Virus record (IMG/VR): IMGVR_UViG_3300032323_000882 | Coordinates: 1 to 25,705 of that record | Reading direction: 5' to 3' (one strand) | Origin: a virus | Length of the DNA: 25,705 nucleotides | In this document: positions 1,308-22,259 of the stretch, piece by piece | How the letters are laid out: each line of letters starts with the position of its first letter | Numbering within the stretch: position 1 is the stretch's first letter | Notes under the pieces: generated by a model | Databases searched by the model: none | Told to the model about the DNA's origin: nothing | What the model saw: the letters and a program-made list of their open reading frames with translations, nothing else | Translations under genes and position numbers: made by a program

Positions 1308-1574
1308 ATGGAAGAACAGGGAGTAACAGGAGGATGGGCAACCATCAAGAACATTATCTGGAGAATTCTAGCGGTATTTGCAGCATCAGGACTAGCAGTC
1401 CTAGGAGCAGGAGCAATCGTTGGAGTTGAGCTATTGTCAGCAGTATTTATGGCAGGTATTCTAGGAGTAGCAACAGTAGTTGAGAAGCTAGCTAGAGCCT
1501 TTTTGGAGGACGGAAAGCTTAGCCTAGATGAAATTAACGAGGCATTCGCTAAGGTAGACAAGAACGCCAAATAA
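1308..1574 (+). CDS. Holin-like membrane protein, 88 aa
   Basis: Two hydrophobic segments (about residues 18-40 and 42-60, rich in Ala and Gly) are followed by a charged C-terminal tail. The tail DGKLSLDEINEAF resembles the second half of an EF-hand loop but lacks its first acidic residues. Size, topology and position before peptidoglycan hydrolase genes fit a phage holin that permeabilises the membrane. A GGAG-type ribosome site (aaaggagtctaaa) precedes the ATG. The holin role is inference. Confidence 0.55.
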   Translation: MEEQGVTGGWATIKNIIWRILAVFAASGLAVLGAGAIVGVELLSAVFMAGILGVATVVEKLARAFLEDGKLSLDEINEAFAKVDKNAK

Positions 1575-1587
1575 GTCAGGCAACCCC

Positions 1588-1616
1588 TTGACAGCCCCTC
1601 CTGGGTAGTGTATACT
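1588..1616 (+). promoter_or_regulatory. Sigma-70-like promoter with -10 in a hairpin loop
   Basis: TTGACA (1588-1593), a 17-bp spacer and TATACT (1611-1616) form a near-consensus promoter for the metallopeptidase gene. The spacer contains the left arm of a long inverted repeat, so the same DNA is also a terminator-like hairpin (next entry). Confidence 0.8.
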
Positions 1617-1648
1617 ATATATAAACACTATTTAGGAGGGGTTTTCTT
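1595..1648 (+). terminator. Terminator-like hairpin overlapping promoter and ribosome site
   Basis: CCCCTCCT (1595-1602) pairs with AGGAGGGG (1634-1641) and TAGTGT (1606-1611) pairs with ACACTA (1625-1630). GGG opposite TTT gives three G-U wobbles in RNA, so the stem can be 17 bp around a 13-nt loop. TTTTCTT follows at 1642. Only read-through RNA from upstream contains both arms; RNA started at the internal promoter keeps only the right arm, which is the AGGAGG ribosome site. Confidence 0.65.
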
Positions 1649-2038
1649 ATGGCATCTGCCAAGACTACAAGGTATCCAAAGCTGCCTACCAAGGTAAAGA
1701 TTGGTGCACAGGATTGGACAATTGTTGAAAGATCACGTGATGATGATGGTATGATCAATGACGATAGTTATGGCTATACCCTGCAAAAAAGCAACTTTAT
1801 TGTTATAGACAAGAACTGCCCCTCATCTCGTAAACGTCAAACCTTATTCCACGAACTGTTCCACGCTGTTCGTTTTTCAAATGGATCTAGTGGCATTAAA
1901 CCAGACATGGAAAACATTCAGTCTGATGATGTAATTTATACTTGGGAACATTATTTTATTGCTATGTATGAAGACACAATGCTATCTGTCTTACGTGAAA
2001 ATCCAGCCATTGTTGATTACCTCTTAAGCAACGAATAA
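1649..2038 (+). CDS. HExxH zinc metallopeptidase-like protein, 129 aa
   Basis: The motif HELFH at residues 68-72 is the zinc-binding and catalytic signature of zincin peptidases. A downstream helix with WEHYFIAMYED (residues 99-109) may supply the third ligand. Size and motif context resemble the short ImmA/IrrE-like (DUF955-type) peptidases, which in other phages cleave repressors, but no partner repressor gene lies next to it, so the substrate is unknown. It has its own promoter and a strong AGGAGG site at 1634-1639 ending 9 bases before the ATG. Confidence 0.7.
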   Translation: MASAKTTRYPKLPTKVKIGAQDWTIVERSRDDDGMINDDSYGYTLQKSNFIVIDKNCPSSRKRQTLFHELFHAVRFSNGSSGIKPDMENIQSDDVIYTWEHYFIAMYEDTMLSVLRENPAIVDYLLSNE

Positions 2039-2040
2039 GC

Positions 2041-2069
2041 TTGACTTTTTGATGAGATAGGTGTAAAAT
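2041..2069 (+). promoter_or_regulatory. Leaderless promoter for the 59-aa gene
   Basis: TTGACT (2041-2046), a 17-bp spacer and TAAAAT (2064-2069). The ATG follows after 6 bases, so the predicted transcription start coincides with the start codon. Confidence 0.75.
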
Positions 2070-4775: not shown

Positions 4776-4804
4776 TTGACACTAGCCATGTGTAGTGGTA
4801 TACT
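4776..4804 (+). promoter_or_regulatory. Sigma-70-like promoter with -10 at hairpin loop
   Basis: TTGACA (4776-4781), a 17-bp spacer and TATACT (4799-4804) drive the operon starting with the zinc-ribbon gene. As at 1588, the left arm of a long inverted repeat fills the spacer. Confidence 0.8.
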
Positions 4805-4840
4805 ATATCTTATAATATGCCACTCACATGGTTTTGTCTT
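4786..4840 (+). terminator. Terminator-like hairpin embedded in the promoter
   Basis: CCATGTG (4786-4792) pairs with CACATGG (4825-4831) and AGTGG (4794-4798) with CCACT (4820-4824); TATA/TATG extends the stem to 16 pairs with one bulged T and a 13-nt loop. TTTTGTCTT follows. It would stop transcripts arriving from the endolysin gene while allowing new initiation from the internal promoter. Confidence 0.65.
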
Positions 4841-4851
4841 AAGGAGATTTT

Positions 4852-5028
4852 GTGCCAACATATGAATATGTCTGTCGTGAATGTGAAACAACATTAGTTG
4901 AAAAAAGAAGCATCCACGATCCATCACCAGAACACTTGTGCCAAAAATGTGGGTACAGAATGAACCAAGTAATTAACAATCTTAGCATTACTTTTAATGG
5001 TAGTGGCTTTTACAGTAAGGATAAGTAA
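4852..5028 (+). CDS. FmdB-type zinc ribbon protein, 58 aa
   Basis: The start is a GTG preceded by AAGGAG. The sequence MPTYEYVCRECE with a second pair CQKCG (residues 30-34) forms the CxxC-CxxC zinc ribbon of the FmdB family, and the ending GSGFYSKDK is typical of that family. FmdB proteins are called putative regulators, but the biochemical role is not established. The stop overlaps the next start by one base. Confidence 0.85.
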   Translation: MPTYEYVCRECETTLVEKRSIHDPSPEHLCQKCGYRMNQVINNLSITFNGSGFYSKDK

Positions 5029-5669: not shown

Positions 5670-5992
5670 TGATAGAGCCATCAATGGAAGAGCTTATCCT
5701 TAATGGTGTTGTAGAGGTAGCAGGAGTTGACTCTGAAACTGGAGAGTTCCTATATAACTTTACCCCAAAACTTAGAGAAGTAATGCCAGAACTATGGAAT
5801 GAACGACTTGACTTTATTCATGGTGAGATAATGTTTTTCTGGGAGAATGGTTTTATAGAGGCTGAGGACATGGACAGCATAAACCCAAAAGTAGTCCTAA
5901 CAGACCTAGCTGACGACGAAGATGCAATAGCCCAGCTGCCAGCAGACAAGCAAGAATCTCTTAGAGAGATTAAAAGAATGTTTGAAAAGTGA
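5669..5992 (+). CDS. Hypothetical acidic protein, 107 aa
   Basis: No family is recognised. The protein is acidic and helical, with LDFIHGEIMFFWENGFIEAEDM in the middle and a charged C-terminus. It is coupled to the nuclease gene (ATG inside TAATG). Its TGA stop is also the TG part of the extended -10 element for the next gene. Confidence 0.7.
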   Translation: MIEPSMEELILNGVVEVAGVDSETGEFLYNFTPKLREVMPELWNERLDFIHGEIMFFWENGFIEAEDMDSINPKVVLTDLADDEDAIAQLPADKQESLREIKRMFEK

Positions 5993-5998
5993 TATAAT
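5990..5998 (+). promoter_or_regulatory. Leaderless extended -10 promoter
   Basis: TGA-TATAAT (5990-5998) ends 6 bases before the ATG at 6005. TGA is at the same time the stop codon of the preceding gene. The -35 region is weak (TTAAAA). Confidence 0.65.
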
Positions 5999-6004
5999 AG
6001 ACGT

Positions 6005-7060
6005 ATGCCATATTCAATAGGAGAGCAGGGAAGCTACGGATGTAGTGGATACCCTGTCGTAAAAGACGGAACGTCAGATGTTATGGGTTGCCATGACACA
6101 AGAGAAGCTGCTGGAAGACAGATAGCAGCAATTGAAGCTAACGAAAATAAAGGTGTTGGCATTAAGAATCCAGAAGAGTGGCCAGTTGATAAAGCTTCTC
6201 CATGTTGGTCTGGTTATGAGCAGCGTGGAATGAAAGAAAAAGATGGCAGGATGGTTCCAAACTGCGTACCAGTATCTAAAGCAATTAAAGATGAGATGTA
6301 TCGCAAATTTAAAGTAAAGCGTCGCAAGCCATCTGGATATGTATTTAGTTCTGATGGTGCTGTGGTTGCAGGAAGCGACTCAATGACAACTAAGTCAGCA
6401 ATTGCTGAGGGTGACTTTGTAATGGGTAATACATCTGAAGGCGTTATTCATGGAGTTGTTGAGCACATTATGTGGGAGGGTGGAACACTTGGTACCCCTG
6501 GATCAGAGTACGCACTTGAATCCATGCCACCAGACAATCCAGCAATGTCTGTAAGAATTTATGAAGAAGACGACGATGATAATTGGGAGCCAACTGCATA
6601 CAGCATTGGTATGATGTACCAAGACGCAGAAGTTGTTGATGCAGAAGAGCACACAATGGATATGATGACAAAGGCTGAAGGCTACGCACCAACATCTGGT
6701 ATGAAAGCTGCAGCACGTCGTGCTCTTAAATGGAAAGAAGAAGGCAAAGCAACTGGTGCAGGAACTCCTGTAGGTTGGGGTAGAGCAACAGACATTGTAG
6801 CAGGACGATCAATGTCTCTTAGTGTTGTAAAGCGTATGTACTCCTTCTTCTCACGTCACGAAGTTGACAAGAAGGGCAAAGATTTTAACAACACTAGCAA
6901 TCCATCAAACGGTCGCATTATGTGGGACGCTTGGGGTGGGGATGCAGGATTTTCCTGGTCACGTGCAATCGTAAAGCGTGAAATGGATAAGGCCCTGTTC
7001 TCTGAATTTGGTACAGACTATACAAATGTAGATAAGCTAACTCACATATTTAAAGATTAG
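6005..7060 (+). CDS. Phage head-associated or accessory protein, 351 aa
   Basis: The N-terminal 50 residues (GSYGCSGYPVVKDGTSDVMG then CHDTREAAGRQIAAIEANE) form a small Cys-containing module I know from phage capsid-maturation and related proteins. Residues about 105-210 are a beta-rich domain with repeated GDFVMGNTSEGVIHGVVEHI features resembling the start of XkdF-like proteins. Residues about 230-325 (AARRALKWKEEGK, RMYSFFSRHEVDKKGKDF, RIMWDAWGGDAGFSWSRAIV) are another domain recurring in phage structural proteins. Together this suggests a mosaic head or portal-associated protein, but no catalytic site is identified and the function stays open. Confidence 0.6.
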   Translation: MPYSIGEQGSYGCSGYPVVKDGTSDVMGCHDTREAAGRQIAAIEANENKGVGIKNPEEWPVDKASPCWSGYEQRGMKEKDGRMVPNCVPVSKAIKDEMYRKFKVKRRKPSGYVFSSDGAVVAGSDSMTTKSAIAEGDFVMGNTSEGVIHGVVEHIMWEGGTLGTPGSEYALESMPPDNPAMSVRIYEEDDDDNWEPTAYSIGMMYQDAEVVDAEEHTMDMMTKAEGYAPTSGMKAAARRALKWKEEGKATGAGTPVGWGRATDIVAGRSMSLSVVKRMYSFFSRHEVDKKGKDFNNTSNPSNGRIMWDAWGGDAGFSWSRAIVKREMDKALFSEFGTDYTNVDKLTHIFKD

Positions 7061-15809: not shown

Positions 15810-15838
15810 TTGACTTTCGTTGCTATACAGTGTAGAAT
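15810..15838 (+). promoter_or_regulatory. Near-leaderless promoter for the HNH gene
   Basis: TTGACT (15810-15815), 17 bp, TAGAAT (15833-15838), then 8 bp to the ATG at 15847, giving a leader of 0-2 nt. Confidence 0.65.
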
Positions 15839-15846
15839 GGATATCT

Positions 15847-16551
15847 ATGAATAAAGATGAGCTGTTGCTATGGCTAAAAGAAGCTAAGCTTGTGCAAGGA
15901 TCAAAGACTCAGTCTGTTCTTAATATTTTGTTTGAGAACCCTGATGGCATCTTGCGTTGTTGCCTAAGGGAAGAAATTATCAATCGTAATCTTGACATTG
16001 GTCAGCCTGCAGGACATATTAGATTTTTAAGAGACGCTGGAATAAACATTCCAAAAATTAAACGTGTAAGATGTAGCACACACAACGTAACAGAAACAAA
16101 GGACAGGCTGGATAGCCCATACCTTACTGGCAACGCCTATGCACGTGCAACATACTCTCCAAAGGAGTTTGGTATCATTCGTAAAACTTTGGGGGTACGT
16201 GATGCATTTACTGATATCCATACTACAACCAACCTAGAGATTGATCATCGCATACCAGTTACAAGGTTAAAGCAACTAGAGGGTAGCAAAGAGGGCAAGG
16301 TAAACGTAGACAGCCCTGACGATATAAAAGCACAGTACCAGCTACTAACCAGAGAGAACAATCAGTATAAGTCTCGTGTGTGTGAAAACTGTGTGACTGA
16401 TGATGTAAAGCCAACCAAGTTTCTTGGGATAAAGATTCCAGTATCTATTGGTGGTGGCCTGCCATTTGATTCTAAGACTAATAACTGTCACACTTGCCCA
16501 TTGGCATACCCTGAAAACTTCCTGTCAAAGCTTGAATACATAGCAAACTAA
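15847..16551 (+). CDS. HNH endonuclease, restriction-like, with winged-helix N-terminus, 234 aa
   Basis: The ATG at 15847 is chosen from the promoter position. Residues about 1-75 (VLNILFENPDGILRCCLREEI, then AGHIRFLRDAGINIP) look like a winged-helix DNA-binding domain. The HNH core is LEIDHRIPV with the His general base, then LLTRENNQYKSRVC with the Asn/Lys end of the finger. Two Cys pairs, CENC and CHTCPLAYPENF, probably bind structural zinc. The build resembles HNH-type type II restriction enzymes more than homing enzymes. No methyltransferase for DNA is adjacent, so it would be an orphan; host DNA attack or defence against rival phages is possible. Confidence 0.75.
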   Translation: MNKDELLLWLKEAKLVQGSKTQSVLNILFENPDGILRCCLREEIINRNLDIGQPAGHIRFLRDAGINIPKIKRVRCSTHNVTETKDRLDSPYLTGNAYARATYSPKEFGIIRKTLGVRDAFTDIHTTTNLEIDHRIPVTRLKQLEGSKEGKVNVDSPDDIKAQYQLLTRENNQYKSRVCENCVTDDVKPTKFLGIKIPVSIGGGLPFDSKTNNCHTCPLAYPENFLSKLEYIAN

Positions 16552-17601: not shown

Positions 17602-17617
17602 CAACCACAAGTGGTTG
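17602..17617. promoter_or_regulatory. Palindromic operator candidate
   Basis: CAACCAC-AA-GTGGTTG is a perfect 7-bp inverted repeat whose right arm overlaps the first three bases of the -35 box at 17615. No T-run follows. It is well placed for a repressor that blocks the downstream gene. Confidence 0.5.
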
Positions 17618-17643
17618 ACATTCTCTAGTATACTCTGTATAAT
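17615..17643 (+). promoter_or_regulatory. Consensus leaderless promoter
   Basis: TTGACA (17615-17620), 17 bp, TATAAT (17638-17643), 6 bp, ATG at 17650. Both boxes are perfect consensus. Confidence 0.85.
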
Positions 17644-17649
17644 TTATAT

Positions 17650-18114
17650 ATGCAGACATTCCTACCTTACAGAGACTTTAAAGAATCCGCAGAAGCCTTA
17701 GACAACAAACGTCTAAACAAACAGATCCTTGAGGGATACCAGATACTAAAGGTTTTAAACAGTGATGACCCCAGAGCTGCCTGGAGGAACCACCCAGCCG
17801 TTAAGATGTGGAGAGGCTCAGAGACTCACCTTTATGAGTATGTCCTCTCTATGGCCAGCGTAGCGACTCTCAGGGGTATCAAAACAGACAAGAATCTGGA
17901 GAACATAGAGACCCTTCGTAATGCCACTAGGGACAGGTGGGGTACAGATAAACCATTCTGGCTAAACAGTCAAGAGATCATAGATAGACTAACAGAATCA
18001 CACAGGGCCAACCTATACAGAAAAGACCCAGAGTTTTACTTTGAGTTCAAAGACAATGATGCCAACCCATGCTGCGATAAGTGTCAGTATTACTGGGTAA
18101 CCCACAACCTATAA
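17650..18114 (+). CDS. Pyrimidine-dimer glycosylase-like protein (MSMEG_6728 type), 154 aa
   Basis: The start MQTFLPYRDFKESAEALDNK with RLNKQILEGYQILKVL, and then WRNHPAVKMWRGSETHLYEY, is the pattern of the MSMEG_6728-like proteins placed with pyrimidine dimer DNA glycosylase/endonuclease V. T4 DenV uses an N-terminal Thr amine; here Gln follows Met, so activity by the same mechanism is not certain. The C-terminus adds a CCDKC pair. A DNA repair role fits a phage of sunlit water, but that is inference. No ribosome site is seen. Confidence 0.75.
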   Translation: MQTFLPYRDFKESAEALDNKRLNKQILEGYQILKVLNSDDPRAAWRNHPAVKMWRGSETHLYEYVLSMASVATLRGIKTDKNLENIETLRNATRDRWGTDKPFWLNSQEIIDRLTESHRANLYRKDPEFYFEFKDNDANPCCDKCQYYWVTHNL

Positions 18115-18791: not shown

Positions 18792-18934
18792 GGAAGCATC
18801 GTAATCCCTAGTATAAGATATAACCCCTAGTACCAAACCATTGTTTTTGGGATAGCCAGATAGCCCCAATATCCCCATATCTCCCATAGCCAAATCATCT
18901 TGATACCCCCGAAAATATGGTTTGATAGATAAAG

Positions 18935-18987
18935 TTATACACAGGGTTTGATGGTTTTACACAGAGTTATCCACATAGTTATGCACA
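18935..18987 (+). repeat. Cluster of four DnaA-box-like sites
   Basis: TTATACACA (18935-18943), TTTTACACA (18955-18963), TTATCCACA (18967-18975) and TTATGCACA (18979-18987) all fit or nearly fit TTWTNCACA, in one orientation. The last three are spaced 12 bp apart. Confidence 0.75.
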
Positions 18988-19202
18988 TATAGATCTTACT
19001 GATTTATTTTAGATTTGTCCTAGAAGTGGATGAAAGTGGATGGATATGGATAATGGAACACTTTTAAATAGGGGCTCGTAATCATTTTAGCACACAAACC
19101 CTCCTATGTCAATAGTGGAAACCTAAATTCTTATACCAAACCACATTTTCTAGGTATTCTACAAACCACCAAACCACCATATTGGGCATATAAAAACATA
19201 GA

Positions 19203-19260
19203 AAAACTATATGGTTTTTGGATCAAACCACATACAAATTAAACAAAACTATATGGTTTT
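19203..19260 (+). repeat. Direct repeat of a 16-mer in AT-rich DNA
   Basis: AAAACTATATGGTTTT occurs at 19203-19218 and 19245-19260, 42 bp apart (about four helical turns). The unit is itself nearly palindromic, and a CAAACCA iteron lies between the copies. Strand opening at this AT-rich site is plausible. Confidence 0.65.
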
Positions 19261-19320
19261 ATATCAAAAGATGATGGTTTGTTATTGTGTATTATACTAG
19301 GGGTAAAGTTGTCTCTTCGT

Positions 19321-19371
19321 AATACCCTGGCCCTTAGGGCCGCAGCTTCGCTGCCAATTTCCAGGGGTATT
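19321..19371. other. Three-arm hairpin (cruciform-like) structure
   Basis: AATACCCTGG (19321-19330) can pair with CCAGGGGTATT (19361-19371), enclosing two perfect hairpins: GGCCC-TTA-GGGCC (19329-19341) and GCAGC-TTC-GCTGC (19342-19354). It is GC-rich inside an AT-rich region. No T-run follows, so it is unlikely to be a terminator. Confidence 0.6.
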
Positions 19372-21118: not shown

Positions 21119-21655
21119 TTAGAAATGGAAGTCTACAGGTACAAGATACCAGTTTTTGTTGCCTTTGTCAATACTTGAGTACATATGTTCTGGATTAGTA
21201 CTATCGTGTTGACTGTCAAAGAAATAGGAATTGAAGTCCCACTTACCCTGAATCATATCAATCATCTTAGCTAATGGATATAGCTCCATGTCATACTGCA
21301 TATTGCCAGCATAGCTATCTAACTTAGCATTCAGGTCAATCTCTTTGCTGTCAAACATTTTGCGGTATCCACTGAACTCTTCCTTACGATTAGTAATCAT
21401 ACTATCAATCATAGCCCTATACTCAGCAGGAGCTTCGTCATAGGAGATAATCATATTAGTAGATGATTCGTATTGGTTGTCAGGGTCAACGTTCCACCTG
21501 CCACCACCCATTACAAACCAATCATACCAAGATAGATATTGCTCTTCGCCACCCATTTCATCTTGTAGCCTTTGTTCAACAAGGTGCAATGCTTCTTGCT
21601 TAGGGTCGTCTAGTTGGTTTTCTACTTGTACAGCTATGTATTGCAATACGTGCAT
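21119..21655 (-). CDS. Conserved-looking actinophage protein, 178 aa
   Basis: The sequence YLSWYDWFVMGGGRWN in the middle and KNWYLVPVDFHF at the very end are distinctive of a phage protein family I know only as hypothetical. The rest is helical and acidic. Leader sequence before the ATG matches the leader of the next upstream gene (AACCCTA, AGAAAGA, ACCCC). Confidence 0.7.
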   Translation of the reverse strand: MHVLQYIAVQVENQLDDPKQEALHLVEQRLQDEMGGEEQYLSWYDWFVMGGGRWNVDPDNQYESSTNMIISYDEAPAEYRAMIDSMITNRKEEFSGYRKMFDSKEIDLNAKLDSYAGNMQYDMELYPLAKMIDMIQGKWDFNSYFFDSQHDSTNPEHMYSSIDKGNKNWYLVPVDFHF

Positions 21656-21683
21656 GGGGTATCTTTCTACTAGGGTTGATTAC

Positions 21684-21712
21684 AGTATGACAGCTAGTTA
21701 GGCGTTTGTCAA
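21684..21712 (-). promoter_or_regulatory. Promoter for the 178-aa gene
   Basis: Minus-strand TTGACA (21707-21712), 17 bp, CATACT (21684-21689). It overlaps the 3' end of the upstream gene. Confidence 0.65.
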
Positions 21713-22201
21713 GTCCTTTTGAAAACTTTCCAAATACTTTTCGTCTGATGGCAGCGAATCAAGATCGAACCTAATAACCTTACCATCATAGGTAGTAATG
21801 AAATCATTAGTGCTAAAGTCTACCTCATAGATACCCTCGCAGAATAGGGTGTCATTAGCGAACTCTGTGTTATCAATCATCTTGATAGTCTTAGTACTGT
21901 TAGCAACTATGTCTAGGATACCAATGCCAGTATCTCTGTGTAGGCCAGGGTATGCGTTTAGGAAATCCTTGTTCTCCCAATCAGTAGACTCATACTGTTT
22001 ATAGAGAGTGTCGCATTCTTCATCCGTAATGAATTCTACATTTTCTAGCTTAGACCATAGATTATCTTTGTTAGTCTTATCTCTTAGGAATGCTAGAGCT
22101 TGGATACCTGAATAGCTTGGATAGCCATCCCATTGTCCATATAGAGCAATCCTGGTTGTTCCTGCTTTGTCTTTTACTATTGTTAGATTTCTAGTTCCCA
22201 T
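21698..22201 (-). CDS. Conserved-looking phage protein (MGTRNLT family), 167 aa
   Basis: The start MGTRNLTIVKDKAGTTRIAL followed by YGQWDGYPSYSGIQALAFL is typical of a phage and bacterial family of unknown function that begins MGTRNLT and has YGQWDGYP. The C-terminal half has EVDFSTNDFITTYDGKVIRF. AGAAAGAGACCCC precedes the ATG. Confidence 0.75.
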   Translation of the reverse strand: MGTRNLTIVKDKAGTTRIALYGQWDGYPSYSGIQALAFLRDKTNKDNLWSKLENVEFITDEECDTLYKQYESTDWENKDFLNAYPGLHRDTGIGILDIVANSTKTIKMIDNTEFANDTLFCEGIYEVDFSTNDFITTYDGKVIRFDLDSLPSDEKYLESFQKDLTNA

Positions 22202-22230
22202 TGGGGTCTCTTTCTGTTAGGGTTGATTAT

Positions 22231-22259
22231 ATTTTATAATAGTTCTGGGGTTTTGTCAA
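22231..22259 (-). promoter_or_regulatory. Promoter for the MGTRNLT-type gene
   Basis: Minus-strand TTGACA (22254-22259), 17 bp, TAAAAT (22231-22236). The spacer holds AAACCCCAGAA, a motif repeated in other right-arm promoters. Confidence 0.7.

Follow-up and report, generated by a model that had tools for sequence, protein, structure and literature searches.

A promoter within a predicted hairpin

Does a single stretch of sixty bases between two phage genes end the RNA of one gene set and start that of the next? The question is raised by positions 1588-1648 of the window, which is the whole IMG/VR virus record of 25,705 bases. There a promoter and an inverted repeat occupy the same DNA, reading TTGACA GCCCCTCCTGGGTAGTG TATACT ATATATAAACACTATTTAGGAGGGGTTTTCTT ATG. 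Judging from this sequence and from its relatives, the element very probably does both, with the start signal placed inside the stop hairpin. Its parts and neighbours, all on the plus strand, are as follows.

1308-1574, plus strand: upstream gene P0002, a small membrane-like protein of 88 residues, possibly a holin; last gene of the upstream unit (ORF list, PHROG match)
1588-1593, plus strand: -35 hexamer TTGACA, starting 13 nt past the upstream-gene stop; TTGA is invariant in 39 aligned relatives
1593-1611, plus strand: left arm of the hairpin (core 1595-1611), which is also the promoter spacer (fold, covariation)
1611-1616, plus strand: -10 hexamer TATACT, with five of its six bases within the hairpin loop; it ends 32 nt before the ATG
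1612-1624, plus strand: hairpin loop of 13 nt (fold), holding the putative transcription start near A1623
1625-1643, plus strand: right arm of the hairpin (fold, covariation)
1634-1639, plus strand: ribosome binding site AGGAGG, inside the right arm and 9 nt before the ATG at 1649
1642-1648, plus strand: T-run TTTTCTT, the putative terminator tail after the stem (sequence); a T-rich tail is present in all 39 aligned relatives
1649-2038, plus strand: downstream gene P0001, an M78/IrrE-like metallopeptidase of 129 residues (Pfam PF06114, E 2.4e-5)
2041-2069, plus strand: second promoter, TTGACT-17-TAAAAT, for a 59-residue THDGD gene (2076-2255) whose mRNA is probably leaderless (promoter match)

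The promoter matches at six of six positions in the -35 and five of six in the -10, and is of the sigma-70/SigA type: TTGACA and a TATAAT-like hexamer lie 17 nt apart and are conserved in relatives. The RNA of 1588-1660 is predicted to form a 19-bp helix (1593-1611/1625-1643) of -34.2 kcal/mol (z -5.9), and none of 200 shuffles folds as well. The same hairpin is predicted in longer read-through RNA. A stable, G+C-rich RNA hairpin with a U-run directly after it is the anatomy of an intrinsic terminator. A terminator scan restricted to loops of 3-8 did not pick up the element because its loop has 13 nt, and a search of Rfam returned tRNAs only.

An earlier note on this DNA had described the two hexamers at 17 bp overlapping an inverted repeat, a 17-bp stem with three G-U pairs followed by TTTTCTT, a -10 in the hairpin loop and a right arm that doubles as the ribosome site. 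All of this can be read from the sequence. The 17-bp stem is the core (1595-1611/1625-1641) of the longer helix, whose two outermost pairs, one of them a fourth G-U, extend into the T-run.

We infer that transcription starts near A1623, 7 nt past the -10, since other, probably leaderless genes of the window have their ATG 7 nt after the -10. RNA started there lacks the left arm. Its first 118 nt are predicted to be no more structured than shuffles, and AGGAGG is free of the long hairpin in the predicted fold.

Chance level and a second element in the window

Could promoter and repeat overlap by chance? Promoter-like sites that match at the level of 9/12 are equally frequent in shuffled sequence, as such an explanation would have it. 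However, promoters matching at 11/12 or better number 10 in the window against 0.7 per shuffled window, and fused elements, where the -10 lies inside the hairpin, number two against three over 60 shuffled windows. Over all fetched loci a strict detector gave raw counts of 38 fused elements with the true motif and six with the reversed one. Together with the covariation of the stem described below, and with the conservation across relatives, which by itself already refutes a chance overlap, these counts leave that explanation practically no credit.

The second fused element of the window follows the endolysin gene.

4776-4804, plus strand: promoter TTGACA-17-TATACT of the second fused element, 6 nt past the endolysin stop
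4784-4835, plus strand: hairpin and T-run of the second fused element, with arms at about 4784-4802/4816-4833; the stem is unrelated to the first

At this junction the ribosome site AAGGAG lies past the hairpin, before a GTG at 4852. The junction after the endolysin is fused in 8 of 14 cases, with unrelated stems.

A third candidate, at 19112 on the minus strand, was not counted, as its hairpin is weaker and no clear gene lies behind it. Its promoter is an 11/12 match with the -10 also within the hairpin, and it falls in a gene-poor region (18900-19330, minus strand) with repeated ACCATATAGTTTT and GGTTTG motifs, possibly an origin or a small RNA. Further, five strong promoters have an ATG 7-9 nt past the -10 (2041-2078, 5970-6007, 15810-15849, 17615-17652 and, on the minus strand, 18791-18754), and the mRNAs made from them are probably leaderless. 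A near-identical leader (AATCAACCCTA.AGAAAGA.ACCCCA-ATG) stands before two neighbouring genes on the minus strand (22201-22259 and 21655-21712), forming a repeated promoter-leader cassette.

Conservation across relatives

Relatives were gathered through the upstream gene P0002, so that the downstream gene does not bias the choice. They represent a group of uncultured phages that has relatives among the Streptomyces phages. The DUF932 protein of the window is closest to that of Stanwilliamsviridae (Streptomyces phages, e.g. Bmoc; 56% identity), and this makes an actinobacterial host likely. P0002 was not found on any genome contig in a contig search. Among public phage records, DSL-LC01 alone has a P0002 relative; it is a metagenome assembly, and the next gene there directly adjoins the homologue. 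The PHROG family of P0002 is labelled "nuclease", yet the protein looks like a small membrane type, and the label may be wrong.

Of the 34 distinct loci in this group of phages, 32 carry a fused element directly after P0002. This number is from manual reading; the automatic count of 33 takes in L210, where hairpin and promoter are in tandem. The genes behind the element belong to about seven unrelated families, including the M78 peptidase, the THDGD protein of about 60 residues, which directly follows the fused element in many relatives, and a 175-residue MTCIAA protein. It is therefore the junction, and not one gene, that is conserved. Among more distant P0002 matches from another phage group (L214-L253) no element was seen.

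Behind the stem, four T or CTTT/TTTC are present in 39 of 39 aligned elements. In most copies of the first junction the right arm is the ribosome site and the ATG is 32-38 nt from the start of the -10, an arrangement that would be expected if the hairpin mainly served to hide the ribosome site of read-through RNA and terminated little. However, the fused hairpin is kept at the second junction, where the ribosome site lies past it, and likewise in L175-L177, with about 100 nt to the next start codon. We regard masking as an unlikely main function.

Covariation of the stem

For the analysis of the stem, 39 elements were aligned, comprising 29 distinct stems. The arms were then re-registered on the stem, because a structure-blind DNA alignment had put the left arm of some relatives out of place by 1-2 nt, hiding pairs. 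In the eight outer pairs, 231 of 232 cells are paired among the distinct stems (221 Watson-Crick, 10 G-U, no A-C and one other), and six of the eight pairs show two-sided changes. Over twelve pairs there are 57 two-sided cells compared with 21.6 in shuffles (0 of 500 as high); as the relatives share history, such shuffle counts overstate significance and are not probabilities. When the partner is slid by one base, pairing drops from 90% to 59-60%.

The same overlap with compensatory changes in the stem, which the earlier note had proposed to look for in related phages, is thus present. None of the 34 relatives gathered through P0002 shows the opposite outcome, a promoter kept after the pairing is lost.

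An inverted repeat over a promoter may also be a DNA operator, a dyad bound by a repressor or activator with the hairpin as a by-product. In favour of this, a dyad over the -10 is a usual mark of operators, and the position of the element is conserved. However, the stem sequences vary widely among relatives and between the two copies of one genome, and the T-run is always present and on one side only. Further, departures from Watson-Crick pairing, read on the coding strand, come to 24 G-U and two A-C over the first ten pairs, which would not be expected for a DNA dyad. That G-U is present and A-C rare argues for an RNA structure in the direction of read-through, and we consider an operator very unlikely.

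Loci where the two functions lie apart

The two exceptions among the 34 loci, L210 and L198, have a terminator and a promoter as separate neighbours instead of a fused element. In L210 a hairpin is found at the same position, followed by ATTTTATTTT, a T-rich tail, and then by a separate promoter, i.e. a tandem order.

L198 is the one clear loss among the relatives, and it is the reverse of a stem lost from under a promoter: the embedded -35 has been disrupted, whereas the hairpin persists, with T6 behind it. Here (about 2760-2930) the T-run of the terminator is followed by the leaderless promoter of the next gene, with the M78 peptidase gene cleanly absent from between them. The sequence GGGGTTTTTT runs straight into the leaderless promoter that follows the peptidase stop in a near relative, L188. 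Since the promoter has decayed and the stem is kept, it seems that the embedded promoter works for the inserted gene and the hairpin for the upstream unit.

These loci also bear on the idea that the hairpin is mainly a signal for RNA processing or protection, such as a target of RNase III or an element that stabilises the 3' end of the upstream mRNA, and not a terminator. With 17-20 bp the stem has sufficient length for RNase III, and hairpins that follow a promoter and have no T-run are found in L110, L114, L122 and L126 of related phages. However, every aligned copy of our element keeps its T-run, L198 has T6 in spite of its decayed promoter, and L210 has the hairpin with ATTTTATTTT and then a promoter at the same position. 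RNA processing as the main role is in our view improbable. The hairpins in L110, L114, L122 and L126, which precede a zinc-ribbon gene, and one in Bmoc (about 52,935-52,990) represent another design, in which a strong 5'-leader hairpin lies just past the promoter with no clear T-run.

Proposed function of the junction

The reading that we prefer, and hold to be quite likely, is a fused junction of terminator and promoter that blocks read-through and restarts expression. The element could stop and start RNA in one place because the promoter sits within the terminator hairpin. What is observed is the anatomy, the conservation, the RNA-type covariation, the synteny and the natural separation of both functions; from this we infer that, in cells, RNA ends at the T-run, starts at 1623 and, if read through, has its ribosome site masked.

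A polymerase arriving from the upstream gene (1308-1574) would copy both arms, and the hairpin and T-run would end its transcript at about 1645. The promoter, of the host (SigA-like) type, would share the bases of the hairpin, with the left arm as spacer and the loop as -10. An RNA begun near 1623 would carry the right arm alone and would escape termination, because the hairpin cannot form when the left arm is absent; the ribosome site would be open for the peptidase gene. In read-through RNA that leaks past the terminator the ribosome site would be paired, and in cases where the start codon comes right behind, this may insulate the gene a second time.

The earlier note had suggested that read-through RNA is either stopped or has its ribosome site masked. 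The conserved and covarying stem supports this reading, but masking is not general: it fails at the second junction, where at 4776 and in its relatives the site is past the hairpin, and in L175-L177. We consider it a plausible, secondary effect. These failures count against the fused junction, as do the interrupted T-run (TTTTCTT) and the long loop (13 nt). The broader proposal of the same note, that one 60-bp element insulates and restarts expression, is consistent with the conservation and covariation in relatives.

A more tentative suggestion, which we hold possible but rather doubtful, is that the 60-bp element acts as a plug-in junction. Behind the upstream gene, one unrelated gene would replace another while both neighbours stay undisturbed; the newcomer would gain a promoter and a ribosome site and the old operon would keep its terminator. 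The joint would in this way promote exchange, as proposed for the PeSLs of T4-type phages.

Comparison with known systems

The PeSL (promoter early stem-loop) of T4-type phages, described in PMC4503421 with reference to Arbiol 2010 and Comeau 2014, consists of a terminator stem-loop and a host-type promoter between genes, at places where genes are swapped. Here, too, a terminator-like stem-loop and a host-type promoter stand between phage genes. However, the order differs. Our scan of 55 kb of T4 gave three tandem cases, with the promoter behind the hairpin and its T-run, and no fused one, whereas the present hairpin encloses the -10 and its right arm can serve as the ribosome site. No sequence relation between the two was seen. 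In the phage group studied here the tandem order occurs in L210 only, and the carrier, judged by its DUF932 protein, is not of the T4 type. In Bmoc, an isolate relative, two tandem cases were seen, along with a fused one that is doubtful.

In IS10/IS50 and IS200, which are protected against outside transcription, read-through RNA that contains both arms of a repeat reportedly hides the ribosome site; RNA from the inner promoter reportedly lacks one arm and is translated, and IS200 adds a terminator. Similarly, the folds predicted at 1588 have the ribosome site paired when the RNA is read through and unpaired when it starts at the element's own promoter, although this does not hold at 4776. The difference is that terminator and promoter here occupy the same bases. 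Nor is the element part of a transposon: neither a transposase nor insertion-sequence ends were seen, and it is flanked by genes for a membrane-like protein and a metallopeptidase.

At frd-ampC of E. coli, one hairpin ends the upstream operon beside the promoter of the next gene, and in this respect the two junctions are alike. There, however, the terminator lies past the ampC start and attenuates the ampC RNA too, while here the new RNA would escape, the left arm being absent.

Searches of a part of the literature turned up no fused terminator-promoter that is kept across a group of phages. The logic of the junction is known, in tandem form, from the PeSLs and, at the level of the RNA, from IS10-type systems.

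Implications for the phages

With such an element a phage would need just 60 bases, and no regulator, to close one transcription unit and open another, since a transcript begun inside the hairpin can never form it. The element would be a ready-made, self-insulated promoter part. Further, it would provide a simple signature for operon borders in uncultured actinobacterial phages, and it could be used to ask if compact junctions steer accessory-gene exchange.
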